Below, in pieces: positions 5,529-20,224 of a stretch of 20,224 bases of DNA. Below the pieces are notes generated by a model that was given only the letters and a program-made list of their open reading frames with translations, was not told the origin of the DNA and made no database searches. The stretch covers positions 1 to 20,224 of the IMG/VR virus record IMGVR_UViG_3300042305_000103; one strand, given 5' to 3'. The position numbers were made by a program, and so were the translations under genes. The stretch's first letter is position 1. The number at the start of each line of letters is the position of its first letter. The stretch is from a virus.

Positions 5529-6133
5529 CAGTAAAGCCCTCGGCTAAGCAGCTTCCGCTCGGCCAATGCCGCGCCCGAGGCCGCCTCTCCGCCCCCGGTC
5601 ATGCCCAGCCGGTTGTAGACGAGCCACCGATCGGCGACGTTGCCCGCGCCGGACAGCACCGTGCCGCCCGCCGACATCAGGGCGCCCGACATCGCGTTGT
5701 TGCCGCGCATGGTCTGCAGCCCGGCCTCGGCGCCGAAGTTCACGCCCTGCACCCGGTAGCCGTAGGCCTCGCGCTCGGCGTTGTTGCGGATCGTCAGCGC
5801 GTCGAGCTCGCCCATGGCAGCCGTGTCGCCCAGAAGGTCGAGCGGGGTGCCGGCGTCGAGCTGGACGCCTGAGGCGCCAAGCGCCGCGCGCTGCGAGCTC
5901 GCCAGCATGCGGACCTTCCGCCGCTGCTCGGTCTCGGCCACCTCGCCGCGGGCCAGCGCGTCCTGCGCCTGGCGCTCGGCGACGATCTGGTTGTTGCGGG
6001 CGACCGCCGCGTTGTAGTCGCCCGCGGCCTTCGCCGCCTGCCCGGCCTGGATCTGGCCGTATGCCGAGACGCCGGTCCCGAGGACCGAGGCCGCCGCGGA
6101 GACAACGGCAAGGGTGGCAGGATCAACGCACAT
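5528..6133 (-). CDS. gp14-like internal virion protein
   Basis: A 201-residue protein, close to the 196 residues of T7 gp14. It begins MCVDPATLAVVSAAASVLG, a short hydrophobic Ala/Ser/Gly-rich helix at about residues 5-30, followed by an alanine-rich helical segment (GQAAKAAGDYNAAVARNN) typical of phage internal virion protein B. The middle has a conserved-looking RKVRMLASSQRAALGASGVQLDAGTPLDLLGD stretch (residues about 75-105) found in many podovirus ejection proteins. It probably inserts into the outer membrane or periplasm as part of the ejection channel. The ATG at 6133 overlaps the previous gene by 11 bases and has GAGGTG about seven bases upstream. The assignment rests on position, size and residue pattern. 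Confidence 0.78.
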   Translation of the reverse strand: MCVDPATLAVVSAAASVLGTGVSAYGQIQAGQAAKAAGDYNAAVARNNQIVAERQAQDALARGEVAETEQRRKVRMLASSQRAALGASGVQLDAGTPLDLLGDTAAMGELDALTIRNNAEREAYGYRVQGVNFGAEAGLQTMRGNNAMSGALMSAGGTVLSGAGNVADRWLVYNRLGMTGGGEAASGAALAERKLLSRGLY

Positions 6134-18106: not shown

Positions 18107-18135
18107 CCTATAGCACCGCCTTGGGATTTCGCCAA
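18107..18135 (-). promoter_or_regulatory. candidate sigma-70-like promoter in front of the head genes
   Basis: On the minus strand TTGGCG (18135-18130) and TATAGG (18112-18107) are separated by 17 bases, with four of six matches to each consensus hexamer. They lie in the 65-base gap after the large terminase, one of the few internal non-coding spaces, about 30 bases before the proline-rich gene. The CTATAGG core also recalls phage RNA polymerase start sites of T7 relatives. The site would raise head gene output above that of the terminase. Confidence 0.4.
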
Positions 18136-18140
18136 TGCCC

Positions 18141-19559
18141 CTAGGCGAACGGGTCGTAGTCGTGCGCGGCAATCGCAACGGCCGCCCGGCCCCGGTCGTC
18201 GAGGCGCGGCGGCGGCGCGACGTGCTCGGCGAAGGTCTGCGCCAGAGCGTCGGCCAGGTCAGGGCTGCGCCCGAGGCGTTCCTTCACCAGGTCCTTCGCC
18301 TCGAGCTGCAGCTTGTCGCCCTTGAACGTGTAGGTCGGCGTCGTGAGCTCGGCGACCAGCTCGTCGATCGGCGGCAGCGCGCCGCCGCCCTTGATCCAGT
18401 CGCACATCTCGAACCACATCTCGGCGCGCTTGTTCAGGTAGCGCGCGTCGTTGGGCCGGCCGGCGTAGTGGACCGGCAGGGGCGCGTGGCCGAGAAGCTG
18501 GAGCTGGTCGATCCAACCGCCGCCGAACCCGCCCGTGTTGTCGACGAAGGTCGCCTGCGCGCGCCAGTCGGTGATCTTGCGCGCGACCGCGCCCGCGCCC
18601 TGCACCGAGTTGACGTTCCGCAGGATGATCGGCTCGAAGGCCACGAGGCCCTGGCGCGGGAAGATCACGCTGCGATCGTCGCCCTCGCGCGCCACGTCCA
18701 CGCCCAGCACGCGCGGCGCGAACGAATACTCGTCCTCGCGCCGGTGCCGGCGCATCGCGTCGCGCACCTCGTCGGGCCCGATCAGCGCGTTGAGGCTCGA
18801 GGGCGGGAACCGGCCGAACACGTTGACCAGCACCCACGGGCTGTCCCGCCCATACTTTTCGATCTGCTGGCGCGCCCAGTCGATCGACACGCGCGGCGTG
18901 CGCAGCGGGTCGTCCGGGTCGGCGGTGATCTCGTGCAGGAACCAGAGGTGCTTCTCCGTCGTCGACGCGCGCCAGAGCGGCCCCTCGAGGTGCGTCGGGT
19001 TCCCAGCCATCATGAGCTTGGTCTCGACGCCGGAGGCGAGGCCGGCCTCGGCCGCGGCCATGACCGCGTCGGGGATGCCGCCGACCTCGTCGAGCAGGAA
19101 CAGCAGGTAGTCCGCATGGAAGCCGGCCAGCGTGTCCGCCTGCTGCGTCGAGTCCGCGCCCTTCGACCAGGAGCGCGCCGACATGAACCACGTCTCGGGA
19201 TGCTCGCGGCAGACGATGCGCTGCTTCTGCCACTCGAAGGCAGCGGTCAGGAGCGCTGAGCGCTTCTGCCACTTAGCCATCTCCTTCCAGAGCCCGTCCT
19301 TCAGGTTGTCGCCGGTGATCGAGGTCGCCGCGATGTTCGCGTGCGGGCGCGTCAGCAGGAAGTTCCACGCCAGCATGGCGAGCAGCGCGGTCTTGCCCGG
19401 CCCCTTGCAGGCCTTGAGCGCCAGGCGCTGGTTGTGCGGGAAGGCGCTCAGGACGTGGTCCTGCCACGGGTCCGGCACGACGCCGAGGCACTCGCGCACG
19501 AAGACCTGGGGCTTCTCGCGCCAGAGCCGGATGCGATCGGCGGCGACGGCGCCGGTCAC
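18141..19559 (-). CDS. terminase large subunit (ATPase-nuclease)
   Basis: A 472-residue packaging motor. The ATPase domain has a Walker A motif ACKGPGKT (residues 50-57), Walker B LLFLLDEVGG (152-161, with Asp157 and Glu158) and the coupling motif AGN (185-187). The RNase-H-fold nuclease domain has GVDVAREGDD with Asp288, FVDNTGG with Asp340 and LADALAQTF with Asp437 as the three likely metal ligands. It cuts concatemeric DNA and pumps it into the head through the portal. The start is GTG at 19559, overlapping the small terminase stop (GTGA); the frame is open further upstream, but that part lies antiparallel in meaning to the small terminase frame. The sequence is complete, with no missing catalytic residue. 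Confidence 0.94.
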   Translation of the reverse strand: MTGAVAADRIRLWREKPQVFVRECLGVVPDPWQDHVLSAFPHNQRLALKACKGPGKTALLAMLAWNFLLTRPHANIAATSITGDNLKDGLWKEMAKWQKRSALLTAAFEWQKQRIVCREHPETWFMSARSWSKGADSTQQADTLAGFHADYLLFLLDEVGGIPDAVMAAAEAGLASGVETKLMMAGNPTHLEGPLWRASTTEKHLWFLHEITADPDDPLRTPRVSIDWARQQIEKYGRDSPWVLVNVFGRFPPSSLNALIGPDEVRDAMRRHRREDEYSFAPRVLGVDVAREGDDRSVIFPRQGLVAFEPIILRNVNSVQGAGAVARKITDWRAQATFVDNTGGFGGGWIDQLQLLGHAPLPVHYAGRPNDARYLNKRAEMWFEMCDWIKGGGALPPIDELVAELTTPTYTFKGDKLQLEAKDLVKERLGRSPDLADALAQTFAEHVAPPPRLDDRGRAAVAIAAHDYDPFA

Positions 19560-20029
19560 TCGTCCTCGCCCTCGCCCTTGAGGCTGCGCAGCACCAGCGC
19601 CTCGAGGCTGACCGTGCCCGTGTGCTCGACGCCGACCTTGTCGCCGAACCGCTTCGGGCTCATGCGCGCGAGCGCCCACTTCCGCACGTCGACCCGCAGC
19701 CGCCGATGCCCGAGCATGTCGCCGCGCTTGATCTCGCGCCGGCCGTCCTCGTGCTCGGTGATGACGTCGCCCTCCATGGGCGTGTCGGCGATCTCGACCA
19801 GCTCGTCGAAGATCGTCTGGGCGCGGGCGTCGCAGGCTTCGTCGTACTGCGTCCGAAAGTCCGGGTGCTTGGGCATCCACGAGAAGACCGTCGTCATCCC
19901 CGGCATGGCCGGGTCGCGGCAGACCGAGCGCAGGCTCTCGCCGCTCGCGATGCGCGCGCAGAGCGTCGATGCCAGCTCGGGCGTGTAGATGCTTGGCCGG
20001 CCCATCTTGGGCTTGGTCTTGCGCTTCAT
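19556..20029 (-). CDS. terminase small subunit, Sf6-like
   Basis: A 157-residue DNA-recognition subunit. The N-terminal GRPSIYTPELASTLCARIASGESLRSVCRDPAMPGMTTVFSWMPKHPDFRTQYDEACDARAQ is the helix-turn-helix region of the Sf6-type small terminase family. The middle (FDELVEIADTPMEGD...) is the oligomerisation helix region, and the end is acidic (KGEGEDE). It binds the packaging site and stimulates the large subunit, whose gene overlaps it by four bases. The ATG at 20029 lacks a Shine-Dalgarno sequence; the ATG eight codons later, just before GRPS, is an equally possible start. It is the first gene of the operon. Confidence 0.88.
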   Translation of the reverse strand: MKRKTKPKMGRPSIYTPELASTLCARIASGESLRSVCRDPAMPGMTTVFSWMPKHPDFRTQYDEACDARAQTIFDELVEIADTPMEGDVITEHEDGRREIKRGDMLGHRRLRVDVRKWALARMSPKRFGDKVGVEHTGTVSLEALVLRSLKGEGEDE

Positions 20030-20135
20030 GGCGTTGGGAATATGCCAAGCCCCCCGGCTTGCGGCAAGGGTTACGCCCGTTCCCTGTCGTTACCTCCCGG
20101 CGTTACCTCGATTTCCCCTGCATTGTCAGCGCCCT

Positions 20136-20195
20136 AGCCCCCTCTAGTAGTAGTAAGTAACAAGGTTACAATATATATATATACATGAGGGGGCT
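20136..20195. repeat. 9-bp inverted repeat flanking the AT-rich tract
   Basis: AGCCCCCTC at 20136-20144 is exactly complementary to GAGGGGGCT at 20187-20195. The arms enclose the tandem TAG TAG TAG TAA, the GTAAC palindrome and the AT-rich run. The arms may merely share G-rich composition. Confidence 0.45.
20157..20169. repeat. palindrome GTAAC-AAG-GTTAC, candidate operator
   Basis: Two perfect five-base arms separated by three bases lie beside the AT-rich tract. The same half-site recurs three more times within 90 bases on the small-terminase side. This pattern fits a dimeric DNA-binding protein with additional half-sites, but no regulator gene is in view. Confidence 0.45.
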
Positions 20196-20199
20196 CTAT

Positions 20200-20220
20200 G
20201 GGGGGGGGTATCCCCTCCCC
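20200..20220. repeat. G9-TAT-C4TC4 inverted repeat at the right edge
   Basis: Nine G residues are separated by TAT from CCCCTCCCC, giving a nine-pair stem with one G-T wobble and a three-base loop. It ends four bases from the window edge. The G run may also be subject to sequencing error. Confidence 0.4.
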
Positions 20221-20224
20221 TCGT

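Follow-up and report, generated by a model that had tools for sequence, protein, structure and literature searches.

The window, the whole stretch of DNA analysed here, is a complete IMG/VR virus record of 20,224 b, classed as linear and possibly a fragment. Its genes, called by codon usage trained on the relative G001, all point leftward and comprise virion genes, the gene for the large terminase subunit TerL (18141-19559, minus strand) and that for the small subunit TerS (19556-20029, minus strand; PF20901, Sf6 type). The 195 b beyond terS contain no gene. Since the record ends at 20224, inside the element described here, the window holds about half of that element. Only the start of its far, primase-side half (20184-20224) is present, and the remaining sites are visible in relatives only; the match to the relative L002 begins at L002:1646, in an intergenic region spanning 1476-1838. 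A tRNA search found none, a generic scan of 19500-20224 for sigma-70 promoters and terminators gave no match, and no Rfam family reached the gathering score within 19900-20224. A scan of genome contigs returned one match, a distant contig of a Rhizobiales MAG (TerL 52%).

The pentamer GTTAC/GTAAC occurs seven times in the window, and five of these copies are found within 20070-20169; the refuting condition set by the original prediction, that the motif be no more frequent here than elsewhere in the genome, therefore did not hold. The five copies that it had noted start at 20070, 20089, 20102, 20157 and 20165. The first (20070-20074) reads GTTAC on the plus strand; the second and third (20089-20093 and 20102-20106) have a pitch of 13 b, as they do in L002, G001 and G009; the fourth and fifth (20157-20161 and 20165-20169) form a tight central pair with a pitch of 8 b. 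Dinucleotide shuffles of 20030-20224 gave a mean of 0.38 sites, and none of 5,000 reached five. When nine other islands were shuffled in the same way, the observed number was reached in 2 of 5,000 shuffles for G006 and in none for the remaining eight. Among all 512 canonical 5-mers, GTTAC/GTAAC was the most clustered in the window, G001, L002, L082 and L054, and its clustering rank over whole records was 1 in G001, 2 in G006 and G009, 3 in G010 and 5 in G007.

Three further features that had been predicted from the letters were also present: a 13-base palindrome, GTAACAAGGTTAC, at 20157-20169 with 5-b arms and a 3-b centre; a direct repeat of a 13-b unit at 13-b spacing (20083/20096); and an A/T alternation at 20171-20183. 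The alternation, which we propose as a melting element, abuts the central pair and occupies the same place in L002, G001 and G009. Both the central pair and the AT run are enclosed by a 14-b inverted repeat (arms 20136-20149 and 20182-20195) that is kept in L002. We considered this repeat as a working structure and rejected it: the folding z score was -2.2 for the window against -0.6 for L002, and the corresponding stretch of G001 gave another fold, with no equivalent of the repeat in it.

The whole element could be seen in relatives recovered through their terminases. Fifty-six TerL loci were found, and whole or nearly whole records were used for nine of them (G001, G010 and seven others). 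Two close relatives were L002 (TerL 99%, TerS 92%) and G001 (44,652 b; TerL 93%, TerS 83%). Both ends of the G001 record (L072 1-500 and L074 14150-14652) fall within similar tandem-repeat coding sequence, and its 49-b end repeat therefore does not establish that it is circular. The gap between terS and a divergent primase/helicase gene measures 363 b in L002 and 355 b in G001. L002, G001 and G009 carry nine sites each in a 4-2-3 arrangement, read from the primase side towards terS, about an (AT)n run, with iteron sets on both sides of that run; the window record ends before the second set. In L002 and G001 the central pair is 8-9 b apart and abuts the A/T alternation. The primase of G009, in which the nine sites are retained, is 96% identical to that of G001.

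Orientation of the sites varied among these relatives. On the terS strand, the window and L002 have GTAAC at the site at 20070 and L004 has GTTAC; at the fifth site the window has GTAAC and L002 has GTTAC. The central pair forms a direct repeat in L002 and an inverted one in the window; in G001 it is inverted in the opposite sense. Because the centres of orthologous sites flip between A and T at two sites, we write the unit as GTWAC, and what had been called a half-site is better read as a symmetric unit. Comparison of G001 with G009 showed identity at 45/45 core bases and 279/310 spacer bases. Between the window and L002 the figures were 24/25 and 165/175, and cores were conserved no better than spacers.

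In L002, G001 and G009 the array is placed 5' of the primase-helicase gene and not immediately 3' of it. The primase gene lies 1.4 to 4 kb from the array, inside the early operon, in G006, the record of L121 and G007, and the VapE gene of G010 is about 5 kb away. The position of the array follows the early/late boundary, not the primase gene, and in most records it stands directly before the terminase or late genes.

The edges of the element carry candidate promoters. We propose a late promoter with a -35 of TTGCCG at 20062-20067 and a -10 of CATATT at 20039-20044, both on the minus strand. The pattern TTGCCG-N17-CAWAWT matched once each in the window, L002, L004, G001 and G009, always just before terS; it was absent from G006 and G007, and its one match in L121 was in an unrelated place. 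An early pattern, TTGCGY-N17-CA[TG]C[CT]T, had a single match ahead of the primase gene in each of L002, G001 and G009 and none in G006 and G007. As the promoter patterns were first spotted by eye, these searches confirm their conservation and do not amount to discovery. A GTWAC site lies 2, 2, 3, 12 and 12 b upstream of the late -35 in the window (the site at 20070), L002, L004, G001 and G009, respectively; the early -35 of L002, G001 and G009 has one 7 b upstream.

A 15-bp palindrome that the original prediction had overlooked, TTGSSAWWWTSSCAA, covers the late -10 at 20034-20048 without a mismatch. With one mismatch it also lies over the early -35 of G001 (at 34279) and in the cro/cI gap of G001 and G009; in G001 the genes on either side of this gap are one that is CI-like (HTH_3) and one that is Cro-like by a weak PHROG match. 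A second operator-like site with one mismatch occupies the gap after TerL in the window (18121-18135), and such sites follow TerL in G001 (36515) and L002 (3733) as well. The window has three palindrome sites, one of them coding. In the 44.6 kb of G001 six sites were found at no more than one mismatch, against a mean of 0.07 in 15 shuffles, an excess that is partly built in because the consensus was drawn by eye from the same sequences. The six lie in the cro/cI gap, at both element edges, after TerL, in the converging gap between the late operon end and the integrase gene, and, in one case, in coding sequence. Positions of the palindrome include, besides those given above, L058 1148-1162 and G001 21839 and 34578.

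Judged from sequence, the palindrome is likely to be the operator of the CI-like repressor, and the set of sites may be stoperator-like. CI-type operators in mycobacteriophage L5 include scattered stoperator-like sites. The present palindrome resembles CI-type operators in its distribution over the cro/cI gap, the two element edges and further gaps; it differs in that G001 has only the six sites and in that binding by the repressor is putative. GTTAC itself was considered as the repressor operator and rejected, as the cro/cI gap holds the TTGGGA palindrome and a single GTAAC. The suggestion that the region is a late promoter with operator thus survives in part: there is a candidate promoter at the terS edge with a palindrome over its -10, but the operator candidate is not GTTAC.

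The divergent gene beyond the element, complete in G001 (902 codons), encodes a DnaG-type zinc finger (CHC2), a weak match to toprim and a helicase half; the window record stops short of this gene. We modelled the helicase half (residues 345-902) from nine sequences, with a mean pLDDT of 78 and a pTM of 0.63. A Foldseek search of the PDB with this model placed SCCmec Cch (5dgk) first (E 9.2e-9, TM 0.43-0.45). In VIA-align, Cch was aligned with a Z of 13.9 and an rmsd of 6.6 over 420 residues spanning 11-533, and MCM helicases, which made up most of the 50 matches shown, had Z of 13.1-14.7 over at most 281 residues; only Cch among those 50 aligned over more than 281. Because MCM helicases score equal to or above Cch, the comparison points to an MCM/Cch-like helicase fold and not to a DNA specificity. 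A sequence search of the PDB with the helicase profile gave weak P-loop matches only (best E 0.005). Cch is a relative of satellite initiators. Cch2 uses its C-terminal domain to bind a site with 5-nt iterons, three AAGTG repeats (PMC7581432).

We extended the search to a wider set of phages with a DEAD-helicase alignment and with the primase-helicase, taking the best 80 of 81 and the best 80 of 272 relatives. This yielded 158 new loci; the scan took in the 150 that were 6,000 b or longer and omitted the 8 shorter ones. At a cluster threshold of log10 p < -3.5, a strong GTAAC cluster was present in 16 of the 150 loci, which merged by contig name to 11 distinct phage records of 47-69% GC. The cluster lay beside the lowest-GC stretch of the locus in all 11. 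Relatives of P0003 at no more than 40% identity were mostly without GTWAC arrays, the exceptions being L246 and L242.

In three of the distant phages the array is located at the end of a gene for a VapE-domain helicase, starting 18 b before the stop codon in L127, 62 b after it in L149 and at the stop in L160. The gene after the array points the same way in each of the three, and the array therefore needs no divergent promoter. A candidate wing motif that had appeared, by eye in six VapE tails, to be paired with GTWAC was discarded, since a larger list disagreed and L133 has the motif without an array. GC skew showed no switch around the arrays of L127, L149, L160 and L126.

The ends of VapE genes were then compared with the rest of their own loci. 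The densest 5-mer in the 400 b round each stop codon was scored against as many as 300 stretches of 400 b drawn at random from that locus, in a non-redundant set of 32 genes from which redundant regions and incomplete tails had been dropped. The stop region ranked in the top 5% of its locus in 14 of the 32 and in the top 1% in 7, and 12 different 5-mers were represented among the 14; the other 18 genes, those of L149 and G010 included, were outside the top 5%. L126, whose centre is much like that of L127, uses another repeat, GTAGA (from 5398). In G003 a GGTCA array lies between two converging 3' ends, the second belonging to a 92-codon gene call (L103 18182-18480; G003 38182-38480), and from this placement it needs no promoter there. 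Dense arrays of other 5-mers were also seen round the VapE stop in the phages L218, L216, L219, L141 and L156. These comparisons of sequence suggest that iteron specificity may be swappable among VapE-helicase phages.

Phages in which tblastn with the primase-helicase, VapE domain and DEAD helicase gave no match (CP2 and the six TerL relatives G004, G005, G012, G013, G014 and G019) were also ranked. The 5-mer came 12th of 512 in CP2, 334th in G004, 112th in G005, 68th in G012, 489th in G013, 254th in G014 and 354th in G019. CP2, SAC and Olaya were intermediate, with ranks of 12, 14 and 17; clusters of 5, 4 and 3 sites were seen among them. The CP2-like Xanthomonas phage CP2 (L075) has three small GTAAC clusters, at 5976 before a late gene, at 34142 over the opening codons of a small gene, and at 42524 beside a purine run and inside a gene annotated as replication initiation protein; similar clusters occur in L076, L077 and L078. 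The GTWAC clusters of CP2-like phages are not explained by the same initiator. G004 (L115 6721-6955) carries a tandem GGCGTACTC-type repeat with ACTCG 22 times in 400 b, which is off the lowest-GC spot and not origin-like.

The main rival to an origin is a transcriptional regulator of the late genes. GTWAC would then be the site of a phage or host transcription factor serving the early and late promoters, the AT run would be promoter DNA, and there would be no origin. The short distances between GTWAC and both -35 hexamers are consistent with this explanation, but the sites are spread over about 250 b and most are far from either promoter. Because the array is mostly placed just before the terminase or late genes, at the early/late boundary, a late-gene role would also explain its position, and the clusters of CP2-like phages are close to two gene starts. 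The analogous array of G003, made of another 5-mer, sits between converging 3' ends, and the better operator candidate is a different motif, the 15-bp palindrome. G001 and G010, which both bear the array, have virion, replication and recombination genes in common, but no recognisable regulator common to both was detected by BLASTP at E 1e-2; the sole other match covers 44 residues of a gene pair with no family assignment (E 0.006). We consider this explanation unlikely, if a serious competitor.

It had also been suggested that the region is a packaging (pac or cos) site, which would be recognised by TerS. Repeated short sites do occur at pac and cos sites, the element is directly upstream of terS, and two records, the window and L004, end inside it. 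This suggestion is disfavoured by G009, in which all nine sites were kept despite a change of terminase. The terminase of G009 (L098 7286-8961) is mosaic: its TerS (DUF5681 type) has no detectable similarity to the window TerS (P0001), and its TerL is 50% identical over 228 residues in the C-terminal half, with no match to the window TerL in the N-terminal half. The site is thus not co-inherited with TerS, and the contigs L002, G001, G009 and L085 continue straight through the element. A packaging site is consequently improbable. Still less probable is that GTWAC marks sites of a host nucleoid or replication factor, or recurs for some other reason such as a modification target, without a phage-specific reader: phages of 47-69% GC, with initiators of two kinds, do share the 5-mer, and CP2-like phages have it in small clusters, but phages with the same VapE and DEAD helicase families carry other 5-mers at the same place (GTAGA in L126, GGTCA in G003), which a phage-encoded reader fits better.

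The remaining option of the original prediction, a replication origin, is the best supported of its three, on the strength of the array, its conservation, its co-location with the lowest GC and its independence from the terminase. We think it probable that the element is a replication origin, PICI/SaPI-like in its working, merged with a divergent early/late control region. This reading draws on the array not following the terminase in G009, on its needing no divergent promoter in L127, L149 and L160, and on its being part of the broader pattern of 5-mers at VapE stops. In the mechanism that we propose, the phage primase-helicase would bind the GTWAC iterons through its C-terminal domain. This initiator would belong with the AAA+ helicases of Cch/SaPI-Rep type; in L002, G001 and G009 its gene begins beyond the element, across from terS. 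Rings of the helicase would form on the iterons to the left and right of the (AT)n run and melt it to start theta replication, and the fused DnaG-type domain would make the primers. The late (terS) promoter, TTGCCG-N17-CATATT, and the early (primase) promoter, TTGCGY-N17-CATCCT/CAGCTT, would act from the edges of the element under a CI-like repressor bound to the palindrome overlapping both. As both are overlapped by it, both would be shut in the prophage.

In PICI origins an AT-rich region lies between two sets of iterons (PMC6092414). The element shares with PICI/SaPI origins the clusters of short iterons on either side of AT-rich DNA and, by prediction, a helicase-type initiator. Only the distant L127, L149 and L160 also share the placement of the array at, or close to, the 3' terminus of the helicase gene. 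The present elements differ in belonging to tailed phages with their own virion genes and not to satellites and in a primase part of DnaG (CHC2) type; in L002, G001 and G009, moreover, the array precedes the initiator gene on its 5' side and is fused with divergent early/late promoters. Given this 5' position and a function that is predicted, we describe the element as one that would work like a PICI-type origin and do not class it as a member. SCCmec offers a second likeness, in the 5-nt iteron of Cch2 (PMC7581432) and in Cch (5dgk) as the best full-span structural match of the modelled G001 helicase half; the Cch2 site has three AAGTG repeats, against nine GTWAC here.

In lambda O-type origins, as here, iterons lie beside an AT-rich tract. 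The element differs from them in not being inside the initiator gene and in having 5-bp iterons in either orientation instead of long direct repeats. No published description of such an array was found in the literature searched, which took in a minority of subscription papers.

A wider reading, that satellite-type origins, with sets of short iterons about an AT tract and read by Cch- or VapE-class helicases, are a general module of tailed phages with interchangeable 5-mers, GTWAC being a widely shared one used with two initiator architectures, is put forward tentatively, as a possibility that we do not yet favour. If true, it would go against the published claim that no replicon besides PICIs has this origin layout, and would suggest that satellites took the layout from phages, or the reverse. 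Our main reading, if right, would bring together in a segment of ~350 bp the origin, both promoters (early and late) and the operator of the repressor for a phage group that is little known, and would provide a rule for finding origins in metagenomic phages, namely dense 5-mers at the end of a VapE gene or at the early/late boundary, by the lowest-GC spot. With such an origin layout in phages that have their own virion genes, the relationship between satellites and phages would become testable.
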